64,000 nt of DNA, taken from contig NC_019869.2 in NCBI RefSeq assembly GCF_002234675.1, forward strand, positions 15,609,015-15,673,014. The letters run 5' to 3'. The translations under genes and the position numbers were made by a program. Each line of letters begins with the position of its first letter. The stretch's first letter is position 1. The stretch is from Oryzias latipes. Lineage: Eukaryota > Chordata > Actinopteri > Beloniformes > Adrianichthyidae. The notes under the pieces were generated by a model. That model did not search any database. It worked only from the letters and a program-made list of their open reading frames with translations, and was not told the origin of the DNA. Below, piece after piece: positions 826 to 45,878 of the stretch.

Positions 826-9646
<8,821 letters not shown>

Positions 9647-38146: not shown

Positions 38147-38151
38147 CACTA
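38147..38151. repeat. Target-site duplication, left copy (cacta)
   Basis: Five bases cacta directly before the TGTGAC start of the 5' LTR. The same five bases follow the 3' LTR. Five bases is the usual size for Gypsy-type integrases. Confidence 0.9.
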
Positions 38152-38843
38152 TGTGACAACGAGCAGCTGTCACATTAAAGAAACAGACAGAAAAGGTTCA
38201 TTGACAGAGTTTATTGTTTTGGTGCAGTTAAAGTTAAGCAGCGGCAGCAATGTTCTTCTAGGTCAGGAGCACCTGTGAAAACACATAGATTTAAATATTT
38301 GTTTTACACCTGCTGCCTTGTCTATGCCTTGTCTGATTGTGATGACTTACCTCTGTTTTCTGTGTCAGAAATGGTCCGCCAGCAAAAGAGGTCCCTAAGG
38401 GTACAAGGACCTTATATTGGTTCCAGGGAGGGAACCAAAATCATTGTATAGTTAACAGGGGAGATTTAGATTAGTAATTTTAGTATTGGAGTGAATTATT
38501 GAAATGTTTTAGGAACAGTCTGTGTATTCTATTTTTGCATGGGGAAATTATCTATTTTTATAGGGGTTAGGGGAACTTTGAATGTACATATTTTAATATT
38601 TTGTGTAAATAGATTTTCTGTGGGAACCTGGGTGGATGGTAGCTCCCAAAGGTGAAATCCTATAAAGGTGGGAGTTGTAACCATTGGGTTTTGTTGTTGG
38701 TTGGTGGTTAGAGCTGGGCCATGACTGTGAAATGCCAACAGAAGAAATTGGAAAATAAAGTTTGAGTAAAAAATCAAGTCCTGAGACTCCGCCTGTGCTT
38801 CTACCATGAGGATGGCCTCCGAGACTACGAGCTGAACGTGACA
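38152..38843 (+). repeat. 5' LTR, 692 bp
   Basis: Begins TGTGACAAC and ends CGTGACA. Contains a TATA box TATAAAGG (38661-38668) and AATAAA (38754-38759), which place U3, R and U5 in the expected order with a start near 38690. The first 23 bases include TGTGACA and its inverted copy TGTCACA, nine bases apart. Confidence 0.95.
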
Positions 38844-38845
38844 AG

Positions 38846-38857
38846 TGGTGTCAGAAG
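38846..38857 (+). promoter_or_regulatory. Primer-binding site (tRNA-Leu type)
   Basis: TGGTGTCAGAAG, two bases after the 5' LTR, complements the 3' end of vertebrate tRNA-Leu (…CTTCTGACA plus CCA) over 12 bases. It would prime minus-strand DNA synthesis. Confidence 0.8.
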
Positions 38858-38884
38858 CAAACAATTAAATGCACAGTGCAGAAA

Positions 38885-41800
38885 ATGACAAGAGGAAAAA
38901 AGACTGAGACCCCTGATCTTCCTTTGGATGATGATAAAGCCACCTCATCTCACCAGGAAGGAGCAGCTGCTCCAGATGAACCAGATAAATTGGAGGAGTT
39001 GACTACTCTGGTGAAGACTCTCGTCCAATCTCAGGCATCCAGAGATAAACTGGTGGAAAAGGAGTCTGCACGCCAAGACCAAAGATGGAAAAACCTCCAG
39101 CATCAATTTCAGATGCTCCAAACACAAGTAAAAGAATTAAAAGATGATTTTGAGACCAGAGCGGAGCAGGAGGATGATGATGATGATGATGTTGGAGAAG
39201 GGGCTGATGACGTGCAGCTTGCTATGCCAACCAGCTGTGGACCTGTCCCACCCACACAACGGGGACCAATACTGCAAAAACAACCCAAGATCTTACCACT
39301 TTCGCCTGAAGATGACATCGAACACTATCTCATGACATTCGAAAGGATAGCTACTGTTTGCCGCTGGCCTAAAGAGGAATGGGCTATTCAGCTCATCCCA
39401 TTGCTCACAGGTAAAGCACGAAGTGCATATGTGCTTATGGATTTTGATGACTCTGAAGACTACGAGAAGGTCAAAGAAGTAATTCTGGCCAAATATGAGA
39501 TCACGGCAGAGACATACAGGAAAAGATTTCGTGCTTTGGACATCAATCCTGGAGAGACCCCACGTGAACTCTATGTGCGCCTGAGGGAACTTTTCAACAA
39601 ATGGGTGAAACCGGAAGCCTGCACTGTGAAAGAGATTTCTGAGAAGTTAATCCTGGAGCAGTTTCTTCGGATGATGAACCCAGAAATGGAAATTTGGATT
39701 CGTGAAAGAGATCCACAGTCTGCAGAAGAGGCTTCACGTCTAGCAGAAGTTTTTCTATCAGCTAGAAGCGGGAGAGGAAGACCTAACTTTGGCCGTGACA
39801 GCTACTTCTCTGGGCGGAGTAAGTCTTATGCGGGTGAAAGGGGTGGTCAAACACATAGTAGAATGCATAATAGCCCCAGGCAATTTTCAGCTAAAGCCAA
39901 GGAGAGCAGACGTTCATTTTCTAGTTCTAAGCAGAATGTCCGCTGTTATCAATGTAATGAAATAGGCCACACCCAGTATACTTGTCCTGCCACTAGACAA
40001 AATCCACCTTCCCTGCTATGTACAGTGCCTAGACCCTCTCAGCCGGTTCAGGTCCAGAAAGAAGTTGTGACAGTACCTGTATTGATTAATGGTCAGAGAA
40101 AAGAGGCTTTGCTAGACTCTGGTTGCTTTAAATCGGTTGTTCTGGAGAGTCTGGTTCCAAGAGATTTATGGAATGAAGCTACTGCTACCATCGGTTGTGT
40201 TCATGGTGATGAGAAAGCGTATCGTACTGCTGAAGTTTATCTAACTATAGATGGTCAAACTTATCTCATGCCAGTAGTCCTTGTGCCAGAGCTGCCTTTT
40301 TCTGTTATATTGGGTAGAGATGTACCTTTGCTTTTTGATTTAATACAACAAGCGCATGCAAAGATGGATGGAGGTGTTTGTGAGACATCTGTTCAGGCTC
40401 AGAGGAAGCCAGTTGGATCAGATCATCAGCATGCAGTTTCTCTTTGCAATATAGTAACAACAAGAGCAAATGCAGCTAGAAATCTACTTGAGGAGCTTCC
40501 TTTTCACAACACCGAGTTAGAAATATCTCCTGTGAAAGTGCGAAAATCTAGAGCTCAGAGAAGAAGAGAAAAGTTCTTGGCTACAGTTGAAACACAGTGT
40601 GATGATGAGAAACAACCCAGCCACGTTTTGGATTTCCAAGTTCCAGCTGATATAGCTGCTCTCCAAAGAGCTGACCCCAGACTTAAAGTATGGTTTGACA
40701 AAGTCTCAGAAATAGAAGGGCAGAAGACCGGTAGAGTAGAGTGTCTGACAGATAAGATTTATCTGATTAAAAATGGCATCCTTTACCAACGTCATGGAAC
40801 AGTTGAAGCCTTAGCACTGCCGCAATGTTTTTCAAAGAAAGTTATGGGGATTGGTCATTCCATCCCATGGGCTGGTCACTTAGCTTTCCAGAAGTCACTC
40901 AACAGAATAGCTAATAGGTTTGTTTGGCCTGCTATGTATACCCAGTTAAAGGAGTTCTGTGCTTCATGTGAAATATGTCAGTTAACAGCACCACAGGGAG
41001 TTGCCCGGGCTCCACTCCAGCCTTTACCACTTATTGAGACCCCCTTTGACAGAATAGGCATGGACATAGTGGGGCCACTTGAGAAAAGTTCATCAGGTCA
41101 TAAATACATTTTGGTTATTTGTGATTATGCCACACGTTACCCGGAAGCTTTTCCCCTGAGATCAGTTAAAGCAAGACAAATAGCAAACTGCCTTATTCAA
41201 CTGTTCTCCAGAGTGGGCATACCAAAAGAGATTCTGACAGACTGTGGCACCAACTTCCTTTCCAAACTGTTAAAACAAGTGTATAGTCTGCTAGGAGTTA
41301 AGGGCATTAAGACCACCCCATACCACCCCCAGACAGATGGACTGGTCGAAAGATTCAATCAAACCCTGAAAACCATGCTACGCAAGTTTGTGTCGGAGAC
41401 AGGCGCGGACTGGGACCAATGGCTGCCTTATCTTTTGTTTGCATACCGGGAAGTGCCACAAGCATCAACAGGTTTTTCACCTTTTGAACTTCTTTATGGT
41501 CGCCAGGTCAGAGGACCACTTGATCTCCTCAAAGATTACTGGGAGAAGCCAGTGACGGATAAAGACAATGTGGTGTCCTACGTCCTGAAGATGAGAGAGA
41601 GGCTTGAAAGGATGAGTACGTTGGCACAAGAACACATGAGGTCAGCACAAGCACAACAGAAGACGTGGTATGACAAGAAAGCCAGAGATAGAATTTTCCA
41701 GGTTGGTCAGCAGGTGCTGTTGCTCCTCCCCACCAGTGACAATAAGCTGTTGGCCAGATGGCAGGGTCCTTACAGCATCACCAAACGTTTGGGTGAGGTC

Positions 41801-43381
41801 ACCTATGAACTTTACATGCCTGAAAAATTAAAAAAACATCAGCGCTTCCATGTAAATCTGTTGAAGGAGTTTCAGCTACCAGCATCAAACAAGCAGGAGT
41901 GCAACCAGACACTCTTTATCCGGGTGGCTGATGATGATGAGGAGGAGAGGGAGAAGTTGTTTCCACATGAAGAAATGGCATCCAGCCCTGTCGATGTGTC
42001 ACATCTCCAACCGGATCGGCAGAGGGAGGTGGGGCGATTATTAGATGCAGAACTTTTCAAGGAGACACCAGGATTCACCACACTGGTTCAGCACAAGGTT
42101 CACCTGAAGGAAGATGCAGTTCCCCGTCGAAGGTACTACAGAATTCCAGAACGTTTGGTTGTAAAGCTCGAGAAGGAGATTGAACTGATGTTGAAGCTGG
42201 GCGTCATTGAGCCATCAACCAGTGAGTGGTGCAGTCCTGTTGTGTTGGTCCCAAAGAAGGATGGATCACTGAGATTTTGCATTGATTTCAGATATCTAAA
42301 TGCAGTATCAAAGATCCAGTCATACCCGATGCCACGAATAGATGAACTGTTGGAGAGGGTTGGAAAATCAAAATTCATCACTACGCTCGACTTGAGTAAA
42401 GGCTACTGGCAAGTGGCACTTGCACAAGAGACCAAGGAGCTGACAGCATTTACAACACCTTATGGCAAGTTTCAATTCAAGGTGATGCCATTTGGTCTCC
42501 AGGGGGCACCAGCGACATTTCAGAGGCTCATGGATGAGATTCTGAGAGATTTTCCCCAGTTTGCAGCGGCATATCTGGATGATGTTATAATTTTCAGCCA
42601 CTCCTGGCGGGACCACATGTCTCATCTGCGCCATGTTCTCCATCTAATAAAAGCAGCGGGACTGACGATCAACCCAGGCAAATGTGTCGTGGCCCAACAA
42701 CAGGTCGAGTATCTGGGCCATGTTGTGGGTCAGGGTCTGGTGAAACCACGTGTTGGCAAAGTGGAAGCCATTCAGGAATATCAGATACCCACAACCAAGA
42801 AGAAAGTGCGGGCCTTTGTAGGGCTGGTTGGGTGGTACAGTAAATTTATTCCCCATTTTGCAGATCGAGCAGCTGTTCTTACTGATCTCACCAGGGCTTC
42901 TGCACCTAACAAGGTTGTTTGGACTGAGGACTGTGATGCAGCGTTTCGGGATCTAAAGGGGGCCATCACAAGTGAGTCTGTTCTATACAGCCCTGACTTC
43001 ACTCGACCCTTCATCCTGCAAACAGATGCATCTGCTGTTGGACTTGGAGCAGTCTTGGTGCAAGAAGCTGAAGGGGAGAGGCATCCAGTGCTGTTCCTAA
43101 GCAGGAAACTCCTCGACCGAGAGACCCGATACTCTACAGTGGAGAAGGAGTGTTTGGCCATGAAGTGGGCGATTGACTCTCTGAGGTACTATCTGCTGGG
43201 GCGCCACTTCTGCCTAGAGACAGATCATCGTGCCCTGCAATGGCTGAGGAGAATGAAAGACTCCAATACACGTCTCACTGCATGGTACCTGTCTCTTCAA
43301 GCCTATGATTTCACAGTGCAATATCGAGCAGGAAAGACCAACTGTGTGGCAGACTGTTTGTCCCGTGTTCATGAGAATTGA
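38885..43381 (+). CDS. Gag-Pol polyprotein of the Gmr1-like retrotransposon
   Basis: One frame of 1498 codons from ATG 38885 (the frame is open from GTG 38876, but ATG is the likely start). In order, by residue: acidic Asp-run near 95-107; capsid with a SCAN-like part at about 209-294 (PRELYVRLREL, LILEQFLRMMNPEM); CCHC zinc knuckle C354-C367; aspartic protease LLDSG (D411) with ILGRD near 475; integrase zinc site H658, H665, C695, C698; integrase core D727, D786, E822 (35 residues between the last two); GPY/F module near 955-990; reverse transcriptase about 1068-1260 with YLDD 1230-1233; RNase H D1381, E1422, D1447. All key residues are present. gag and pol are joined without frameshift or stop. 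This is element protein, not a host gene. Confidence 0.96.
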   Translation: MTRGKKTETPDLPLDDDKATSSHQEGAAAPDEPDKLEELTTLVKTLVQSQASRDKLVEKESARQDQRWKNLQHQFQMLQTQVKELKDDFETRAEQEDDDDDDVGEGADDVQLAMPTSCGPVPPTQRGPILQKQPKILPLSPEDDIEHYLMTFERIATVCRWPKEEWAIQLIPLLTGKARSAYVLMDFDDSEDYEKVKEVILAKYEITAETYRKRFRALDINPGETPRELYVRLRELFNKWVKPEACTVKEISEKLILEQFLRMMNPEMEIWIRERDPQSAEEASRLAEVFLSARSGRGRPNFGRDSYFSGRSKSYAGERGGQTHSRMHNSPRQFSAKAKESRRSFSSSKQNVRCYQCNEIGHTQYTCPATRQNPPSLLCTVPRPSQPVQVQKEVVTVPVLINGQRKEALLDSGCFKSVVLESLVPRDLWNEATATIGCVHGDEKAYRTAEVYLTIDGQTYLMPVVLVPELPFSVILGRDVPLLFDLIQQAHAKMDGGVCETSVQAQRKPVGSDHQHAVSLCNIVTTRANAARNLLEELPFHNTELEISPVKVRKSRAQRRREKFLATVETQCDDEKQPSHVLDFQVPADIAALQRADPRLKVWFDKVSEIEGQKTGRVECLTDKIYLIKNGILYQRHGTVEALALPQCFSKKVMGIGHSIPWAGHLAFQKSLNRIANRFVWPAMYTQLKEFCASCEICQLTAPQGVARAPLQPLPLIETPFDRIGMDIVGPLEKSSSGHKYILVICDYATRYPEAFPLRSVKARQIANCLIQLFSRVGIPKEILTDCGTNFLSKLLKQVYSLLGVKGIKTTPYHPQTDGLVERFNQTLKTMLRKFVSETGADWDQWLPYLLFAYREVPQASTGFSPFELLYGRQVRGPLDLLKDYWEKPVTDKDNVVSYVLKMRERLERMSTLAQEHMRSAQAQQKTWYDKKARDRIFQVGQQVLLLLPTSDNKLLARWQGPYSITKRLGEVTYELYMPEKLKKHQRFHVNLLKEFQLPASNKQECNQTLFIRVADDDEEEREKLFPHEEMASSPVDVSHLQPDRQREVGRLLDAELFKETPGFTTLVQHKVHLKEDAVPRRRYYRIPERLVVKLEKEIELMLKLGVIEPSTSEWCSPVVLVPKKDGSLRFCIDFRYLNAVSKIQSYPMPRIDELLERVGKSKFITTLDLSKGYWQVALAQETKELTAFTTPYGKFQFKVMPFGLQGAPATFQRLMDEILRDFPQFAAAYLDDVIIFSHSWRDHMSHLRHVLHLIKAAGLTINPGKCVVAQQQVEYLGHVVGQGLVKPRVGKVEAIQEYQIPTTKKKVRAFVGLVGWYSKFIPHFADRAAVLTDLTRASAPNKVVWTEDCDAAFRDLKGAITSESVLYSPDFTRPFILQTDASAVGLGAVLVQEAEGERHPVLFLSRKLLDRETRYSTVEKECLAMKWAIDSLRYYLLGRHFCLETDHRALQWLRRMKDSNTRLTAWYLSLQAYDFTVQYRAGKTNCVADCLSRVHEN

Positions 43382-43395
43382 TGTACTGTAAACTT

Positions 43396-43414
43396 GGGAG
43401 AGGGGGTGAGGAAA
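43396..43414 (+). promoter_or_regulatory. Polypurine tract
   Basis: A purine run (gggagagggggtgaggaaa, one T) directly before the 3' LTR, 15 bases after the gag-pol stop codon. It would prime plus-strand DNA synthesis. Confidence 0.9.
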
Positions 43415-44106
43415 TGTGACAACGAGCAGCTGTCACATTAAAGAAACAGACAGAAAAGGTTCATTGACAGAGTTTATTGTTTTGGTGCAGTTAAAGTTAA
43501 GCAGCGGCAGCAATGTTCTTCTAGGTCAGGAGCACCTGTGAAAACACATAGATTTAAATATTTGTTTTACACCTGCTGCCTTGTCTATGCCTTGTCTGAT
43601 TGTGATGACTTACCTCTGTTTTCTGTGTCAGAAATGGTCCGCCAGCAAAAGAGGTCCCTAAGGGTACAAGGACCTTATATTGGTTCCAGGGAGGGAACCA
43701 AAATCATTGTATAGTTAACAGGGGAGATTTAGATTAGTAATTTTAGTATTGGAGTGAATTATTGAAATGTTTTAGGAACAGTCTGTGTATTCTATTTTTG
43801 CATGGGGAAATTATCTATTTTTATAGGGGTTAGGGGAACTTTGAATGTACATATTTTAATATTTTGTGTAAATAGATTTTCTGTGGGAACCTGGGTGGAT
43901 GGTAGCTCCCAAAGGTGAAATCCTATAAAGGTGGGAGTTGTAACCATTGGGTTTTGTTGTTGGTTGGTGGTTAGAGCTGGGCCATGACTGTGAAATGCCA
44001 ACAGAAGAAATTGGAAAATAAAGTTTGAGTAAAAAATCAAGTCCTGAGACTCCGCCTGTGCTTCTACCATGAGGATGGCCTCCGAGACTACGAGCTGAAC
44101 GTGACA
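43415..44106 (+). repeat. 3' LTR, 692 bp
   Basis: Same length as the 5' LTR and no difference found on reading them against each other. TATA box at 43924-43931 and AATAAA at 44017-44022. Confidence 0.95.
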
Positions 44107-44111
44107 CACTA
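44107..44111. repeat. Target-site duplication, right copy (cacta)
   Basis: Five bases cacta right after the CGTGACA end of the 3' LTR, matching 38147-38151. Confidence 0.9.
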
Positions 44112-45878
44112 AAACAGCATTTGGCTTCACAATCAGTCTAGATTTAACTAAAAACTAATTTGAGGGAGAATTTTAACATTTAAAGAAAGATGTTTAGTGT
44201 ACATCAATAATTCTGAATCATAAAAGGTGCAGAGTAATGATGTTTACAACAATCACAGCAAACCTGGAAAACCACTCCTCATGCAGCTTTAAGAAGTTTA
44301 CAACTTCAAGTGGGAAACAGCTGAAATATCAAAAAGGTTAATAATAGAAACAAATTGTTTGATTGACAGATTTAAGCAACCTAAGTACTTTAAATCTTTA
44401 TTATTAATGGAAGTCTTCAGAGCATTAAAAGACACACTCCAAAGAAAATTTTGTATGCTATTTTTAACATGTTCTTGTAGAATTTTTCTCATGATAGAGG
44501 ACATACAGTACATAAAATAAGTAAATCTTAAAACTGCGTTTCTTAGTATTCTTTAGTCAAATCACAGTGAATCAGGAGCAGATGAAAAAATGTCATTTGA
44601 AAAATGTCTCATTTGTGACGTATAAACAGCGATGGGTGAGGTAAAGTCTTACTGCTTAATTACATTCTGATACATCCACTTGTGGACAAATAGATCCATT
44701 TACGTCTTTGTTTTCCTTGTCTGAGGAACATAAACAGTACTGTAAATTAAGTAAACGTTTAAACATATTAGATCCACTTACAGCCATTGCCACCAGAATA
44801 AAGAGAGCTGTTCCAGCACCCCAGTGTCTTTTTGTAAAGGAATCTGAAATCAAAATGGGACATTGAGTCATTTACCTGAGATTTTTTTACCTGTATTTTT
44901 AAGATATGATTATTTTTTGGACCATGCTTCAATTAGAGCTAAATAGAAACATTTGTGAATTACAAAACAAATAACTTTTTGTTGACAGTCTTCATTCATT
45001 AAGGCAGTAATTTTATCTAAATTAAACAGACCTGTGTTACCAGAACACATTACATGTGTGGCATCATTAGTCCTGATCTTTGTTTTGTCCAGACTGACGG
45101 TGATGTTTTTCTGACTGCTAAATAACTGAAACACACAGCTGAATTTCTGCCAATCTGTCAGCGGTAATGAGGAAGTGTTCAGATAAATGCTCATCTGGAA
45201 GGTTTCATCGTTGTTGGGGAGGATCTCTCCTTTTTCTACATCTCCATGAAATTCTTCTCCATCCTTCATCCAGAACAGGTCGGCTATGTCAGGAAAAAAG
45301 CCAGTAGCATGGCAGCTGACTAAAGAGGAGTTAGACCTCTGGAGTAGAGATACTAATGGAAGAACTACAGAAAAAAGGAAACCTTCATTGAGATATATTT
45401 TAATTGGAAAGTTGCATGTCTCTATTGTACTTAAAAAAATACTATTTGGCAGTGAAAGCTTCTAAGTTTACCTGCTCTCTGTAGATATTCTCTTCCAAAT
45501 GTCACATATTTCTTAAGCCAATCTGGACACTGGATAGAGTAGAAGTATTCAGAGTGTTTCAAACTAACTTTATTATTTTCCCAAGTCAGTTTGGTGGCAT
45601 AAGCTTTTTCTGTTAAAGCAGTCCATTCGTGTTTCAGCAAGTCAAGTTTGAGGAAATCTTCACCATCATAGGCGTACCGATTAAAGCTTTTAGTTTCTCC
45701 AGTTTCATCATCCCATTCACAGCCAGAATGCTGCTGAAAGACATGTTTACCTGAAAGACAGAAATGTCATAGAATTGTGGTCCTTAGAAGGTGCGCTGGA
45801 ACAGAATATCATTCTGATGTAACAACAAAATGGAATGTCTACTCCATGATGTGATGTACCTCCTAAACAAACTGTTCA

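Follow-up and report, generated by a model that had tools for sequence, protein, structure and literature searches.

A complete medaka retrotransposon with integrase ahead of reverse transcriptase, very probably a member of the Gmr1-like Ty3/Gypsy group

Anatomy of the element

The stretch analyzed here, called the window below, is 64,000 nucleotides of the medaka Oryzias latipes (RefSeq assembly GCF_002234675.1, contig NC_019869.2, forward-strand positions 15,609,015 to 15,673,014). At window positions 38152-44106 lies a complete long terminal repeat (LTR) retrotransposon of 5955 bp, whose integrase is encoded upstream of its reverse transcriptase. Ordinary Ty3/Gypsy elements have the order reverse transcriptase-RNase H-integrase, and Ty1/copia elements the order integrase-reverse transcriptase-RNase H; a group with swapped order, including Gmr1 of Atlantic cod, was reportedly described by Goodwin and Poulter in 2002. 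A first-pass annotation, made from the letters and their open reading frames alone, had named the catalytic residues of this element, taken the copy to be intact and placed it in the Gmr1-like group. Its features, in window positions, are as follows.

38147..38151, no strand: left target-site duplication, CACTA, with the same five bases at 44107-44111
38152..38843, plus strand: 5' LTR, 692 bp, TG...CA, 0/692 mismatches to the 3' LTR
38846..38857, plus strand: primer-binding site, TGGTGTCAGAAG, identical across the four copies compared
38885..43381, plus strand: single open frame, 1498 aa, Gag-protease-integrase-reverse transcriptase-RNase H
39509..39769, plus strand: SCAN domain, the C-terminal part of the capsid, in Gag (Pfam PF02023, E 3.7e-25)
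39944..39985, plus strand: CCHC zinc-knuckle pattern of Gag, residues 354-367 (pattern match)
40088..40324, plus strand: aspartic protease, D411 (LLDSG) at 40115 (Pfam RVP, E 1.4e-7)
40442..40474, plus strand: stretch LCNIVTTRANA in the spacer between protease and integrase, with a similar stretch in other swapped-order elements
40820..40993, plus strand: integrase zinc-binding domain, H2C2 (Pfam PF17921, E 1e-13)
41042..41350, plus strand: integrase core, D727/D786/E822 (Pfam rve, E 3.3e-10)
41732..41872, plus strand: integrase C-terminal SH3/GPY-F-like part (Pfam SH3_Tf2-1, E 4.8e-11; Integrase_p58_C, E 2.7e-9)
42248..42724, plus strand: reverse transcriptase, YLDD at 42572-42583 (Pfam RVT_1, E 4.7e-38)
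42920..43306, plus strand: RNase H, D1381/E1422/D1447 (Pfam RT_RNaseH, E 2.6e-37; RT_RNaseH_2, E 4.4e-35)
43397..43414, plus strand: polypurine tract adjoining the 3' LTR, with one T inside
43415..44106, plus strand: 3' LTR, 692 bp
44107..44111, no strand: right target-site duplication, CACTA

The coding frame, which runs from an ATG at 38885 (a GTG lies 9 bases upstream of it) to a stop at 43381, is thus only part of an element that has the paired LTRs, target-site duplication, primer site and polypurine tract of an LTR retrotransposon, and the copy is intact in all of these parts, as the first-pass annotation had judged from the frame. The exact repeat measures 693 bp rather than 692 because a chance-identical base precedes each LTR. 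We take the primer-binding site to match the 3' end of tRNA-Leu.

Searched against Pfam in four pieces, the frame returned, all above cut-off and in this order, SCAN, RVP, Integrase_H2C2, rve, the integrase C-terminal models, RVT_1 and RT_RNaseH. The catalytic residues (D411; D727, D786 and E822; YLDD at 1230-1233; D1381, E1422 and D1447) are present in the one frame exactly as first named, with the integrase triad ahead of YLDD. Between D786 and E822 stand 35 residues; the rve match stops at 41329, and the codon of E822 is at 41348. No Pfam family matched the spacer between protease and integrase, no chromodomain was found by Pfam in the integrase, and in NCBIfam the only matches, all below cut-off, were to transposases and group II intron reverse transcriptases.

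Copies in medaka and likeness to Gmr1-like elements

The host genome was searched over 734,051,031 bases in 25 contigs. A 401-base integrase query gave 40 matches (40 of 70 candidates scored), which comprise four copies at about 100% identity, one broken copy whose pieces show 96 and 98%, and relatives with 68-76%. Besides the window copy, the three other full-length copies occupy separate sites with target-site duplications AGGGG, AATGT and GGTGC, their paired LTRs differ at 0/691, 4/692 and 1/692 positions, and their frames, opening with the same ATG, encode 1497, 1498 and 1497 aa. With an LTR query, 41 matches were obtained (40 of 68 candidates scored), eight of them from the four copies; the other 33 among the matches listed, which may be solo LTRs or older copies, are 82-97% identical to the query. 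The absence of differences over 692 LTR positions sets an upper bound on divergence near 0.4% (3/692, worked by hand), so the window copy is a recent insertion or, less likely, one whose LTRs underwent recent gene conversion; the family may still be mobile today. At host C22:18729491-18732485, three LTRs of the family stand in a row, the third of them partial, spaced 541 and 543 bases apart as a repeated LTR-insert unit.

The element combines an integrase upstream of reverse transcriptase and RNase H, Gypsy-type enzymes in all three cases, a SCAN-like capsid and a Gag-Pol in one frame. Gmr1 is described by its integrase upstream of reverse transcriptase in the available passages of PMC6238403, PMC3587641, PMC8220671 and PMC2774666. 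Compared by published description, the Gmr1-like clade (Gmr1 of cod) shares with the window element the order of integrase before reverse transcriptase, the Gypsy-type enzymes, the SCAN-type capsid and a fish host, and on that description no difference was found. Nearest in detail are Gmr1 to Gmr4 of pufferfish, which, in the part of PMC11117352 available, likewise have Gag and Pol fused (1506-1634 aa against 1498 aa here) but differ in their LTRs of 337-518 bp and consensus lengths of 6058-6465 bp, against 692 bp and 5955 bp here; the same text reports young insertions of these pufferfish elements. A Gag-Pol in one frame is shared with Mag as well. Within medaka itself, Olat_gypsy_158 is given with SCAN, retropepsin, integrase, reverse transcriptase and RNase domains in one frame in a portion of PMC8550402, a likeness by domain list only.

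Among solved structures, the closest relative of the window integrase is that of Ty3 (7q5b), and the closest to its reverse transcriptase is 4ol8, near-identical in sequence to Ty3, followed by Ty3 7q5b. Yeast Ty3 has homologous reverse transcriptase, RNase H and integrase, but its reverse transcriptase (584-1009) precedes its integrase (1089-1445; PDB 7q5b_A). Ty1/copia elements, conversely, have integrase before reverse transcriptase and RNase H like the window element, with enzymes of another family.

The Gag of the window element matched the solved SCAN proteins zinc fingers 24, 42 and 174, PEG3 and ZSCAN10, all at 6.6e-7 or better, the best noted phmmer match being zinc finger protein 24 (3lhr_A, E 1.7e-13). 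Homology between SCAN and Gmr1-like Gag is reported in a passage of PMC4592553, and derivation of SCAN from such a Gag in one of PMC3424704; in frogs, according to an excerpt of PMC4131045, over half of Gmr elements carry SCAN and no other type there does.

Judged from sequence, the assignment to the Gmr1-like Ty3/Gypsy group made in the first-pass annotation appears right, given the Gypsy-type Pfam models, Ty3 as the closest solved relative of integrase and reverse transcriptase, the SCAN domain and the place of the swapped elements on one side of a tree branch (below). Related host copies with the same order, for which that annotation had proposed a search, were found both as the three near-identical full-length copies and as divergent swapped loci. 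Its description of the group as one of deuterostomes held for the swapped Gypsy order but not for host range, since members from crustaceans and annelids have been published (in passages of PMC3587641 and PMC8220671).

Domain order and trees of Gypsy loci

Thirty-five host loci (L009-L043) were fetched. They were chosen and non-random, so that they give no genome-wide share: L009-L028 were selected by similarity to the window integrase, L029-L042 to cover the spread of the 150 integrase-domain candidates scored out of 2716, and L043 was taken from the list of SCAN matches before its order was known. Order was readable in 34 of the 35, integrase preceding reverse transcriptase in 23 and following it in 11; no reverse transcriptase match was found in L023, whose order was therefore unread. 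Two of the 23 swapped calls are doubtful: in L012 and L022 the reverse transcriptase match is kilobases away (43% identity in L012). Among L029-L038, three of ten are swapped (L029, L033 and L038) and seven canonical, and L043 turned out to be swapped too. These four form a second lineage, about 39-47% identical to the window lineage in integrase and reverse transcriptase. SCAN was above the cut-off of 27 in this lineage also (49.3 bits in L033, 38.1 bits in L038). By eye, none of the 150 listed SCAN matches (150 scored of 289 candidates) fell in the 11 canonical loci, where Gag perhaps lies partly outside the fetched stretches. A chromodomain was present in one of the four canonical integrases scanned (L034). 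Four integrase-domain matches at host C10:21564892-21579491, each within a 1190-aa open frame, follow one another at 4806-4807 bases and represent either tandemly arrayed Gypsy-type elements or an artifact of assembly.

Outside the host assembly, prokaryote genome contigs scanned with an integrase alignment yielded one relative among 48 stretches. This locus, L056, takes up an entire contig of 5472 bases (NJBF01000101.1) assigned to a Candidatus Heimdallarchaeota metagenome-assembled genome, and its single 1244-aa frame has the swapped order, with integrase at 1104-2045, reverse transcriptase at 2529-3158 and RNase H at 3273-3728; its upstream part gave zinc-knuckle and protease matches below cut-off. 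In each of two trees it joins the second swapped lineage, with 60% and 61% identity to L043, and it is probably a stray animal contig in the metagenomic bin. Viral contigs scanned with the window integrase gave nothing, and with the integrase alignment they gave 12 loci at 25-50% identity and partial integrase coverage.

The trees leave out L009-L011 (near-identical to the window element), L012 and any row whose domain was incomplete or carried a stop; in L022 every domain was too incomplete for use. In all three trees, the swapped rows lie on one side of a branch: 17 against 11 canonical rows for reverse transcriptase (support 100/99), 13 against 10 for integrase (100/97) and 13 against 11 for RNase H (91/89). 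Bootstrapping with 200 trees recovered that branch at 100% for reverse transcriptase and integrase and at 90% for RNase H. Long branches that meet were flagged, among others for reverse transcriptase between the L029 group and the canonical rows, and quick trees were therefore repeated without L032, L036, both of these, the L029 lineage or the L034 group. All 15 such trees again set the swapped rows apart on one side of a branch, with Shimodaira-Hasegawa-like approximate likelihood ratio test (SH-aLRT) values of 99-100 for reverse transcriptase, 97-99 for integrase and 81-99 for RNase H. Rooting on Ty3 (PDB 7q5b) places the swapped rows within the canonical ones (98/99 for reverse transcriptase, 100/98 for integrase), and such nesting inside canonical-order Gypsy fits a single change of order. 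In these rooted trees, the long branches flagged were Ty3, L036 and L032 in both and, for reverse transcriptase, also L033 and L024.

Origin of the swapped order

We are confident that the window element belongs to the Gmr1-like Ty3/Gypsy group, as a complete copy inserted recently in medaka, with most likely an ordinary LTR cycle and an order that most likely arose once. Most likely, RNA driven from the LTR would be translated into one Gag-Pol polyprotein and cleaved by the protease, after which tRNA-primed reverse transcription would lead to an insertion made by the integrase with its 5-bp duplication. The order need not alter the chemistry of the enzymes because the protease presumably frees them. 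The change itself most likely took place in an ancestor of the sampled swapped-order elements, where a block of reverse transcriptase leader, reverse transcriptase and RNase H would have exchanged place with a block of integrase N-terminal extension and integrase.

The edges of these blocks, read by eye and not statistically, give some idea of what moved. The stretch before the reverse transcriptase of the window element (from VSHLQ to the YRIPERL motif) is like that of canonical L030, L031 and L039 and less like that of L034 and L040, and the stretch before its integrase, DIAALQRADPRLKVW, is like that of L030, L031 and L032. Eight swapped rows extend beyond RNase H, and in seven of these the frame closes 0-20 codons further on. 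Alike edge stretches together with a frame end near RNase H make the moved unit look like leader, reverse transcriptase and RNase H. In the spacer ahead of the integrase, the pattern [VI][TV]?TR[AS] occurs within 110 aa in 11/11 swapped rows and before the reverse transcriptase in 0/11 canonical rows (shuffling expectation 0.08 and 0.06). This wider pattern was written after looking, an earlier, narrower one having matched 7/13 swapped and 0/11 canonical rows, and its 11 swapped rows omit L019, L020 and L025, which did not match the narrower pattern, and add L018. We speculate, tentatively and with the balance tilted against it, that in one ancient event a precise block, which starts with the reverse transcriptase leader and closes with RNase H, was carried past the integrase, and that the [VI]TR[AS] of both lineages may be a processing site or a signal tied to the new order.

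The alternative that survives best, though we think it unlikely, is that the order arose more than once, the window lineage and that of L029, L033, L038 and L043 being separate inventions. It draws on the modest identity of the two lineages and on a comparison made with 11 canonical elements of one genome and Ty3, between which an unsampled canonical lineage could fall; the bootstrap recurrence of the one branch for all three enzymes speaks against it, as do the SCAN domain and the [VI]TR[AS] stretch common to both lineages. Very improbable, by our estimate, is a chimera, either a Ty1/copia-type element or a Gypsy reverse transcriptase joined to the integrase of another lineage. The order is copia-like, as such an origin would have it, but the copia-type reverse transcriptase model, which we take to be RVT_2, was absent among Pfam matches listed to E 10 (most matches above about 0.1 are removed by the filters), Ty3 stands nearest to integrase and reverse transcriptase among solved structures, and the reverse transcriptase, integrase and RNase H trees share the same split between swapped and canonical rows. 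Misassembly, or fusion of two neighboring elements, which repeats make possible a priori and for which no support was found, has practically no standing against one unbroken frame between identical, duplication-flanked LTRs and the recurrence of this order in relatives as distant as about 40% identity and in a contig of another assembly, and it is refuted by the three further full-length copies elsewhere with their own 5-bp duplications, so that the order, about which the first-pass annotation had raised this doubt, is genuine.

Several observations weigh against a single-origin, Gmr1-like reading of the element. The trees hold swapped and canonical host loci, L056 and Ty3, and Gmr1 itself enters the comparison by description. 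Support is lower for RNase H (91/89, and an SH-aLRT of 81 without L036), and the Ty3 rooting of the integrase tree is weak because the Ty3 branch is very long (2.72). The sister of the swapped clade also differs, being L032 for reverse transcriptase (82/87) and the group of L030, L031, L036 and L039 for integrase (82/80). L043 has no stop in the 40 codons printed after RNase H, and the upstream part of L056, a contig that may begin inside Gag, yielded no SCAN match.

Elsewhere in the window, a 119-aa frame lies beside the element on the minus strand (44910-45269); its immunoglobulin C1-set match of 17.7 bits stays under the cut-off of 21, and it is perhaps an exon of a gene like those of the major histocompatibility complex, and pentanucleotide tandem repeats of TTCTA and TATTC stand at 3126-3297 and 6540-6602.

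The order, the SCAN capsid and the single frame are all already in print for the Gmr1-like group, to which the window family adds one member: a young, annotated family in a known clade. Its SCAN capsid is in line with the published connection of this clade's capsid to the SCAN domain found in vertebrate transcription factors. Since both Gypsy pol orders and many long open copies occur together in one fish genome, the site at which the block was cut, and whether the order changed only once, can be studied by comparison alone.

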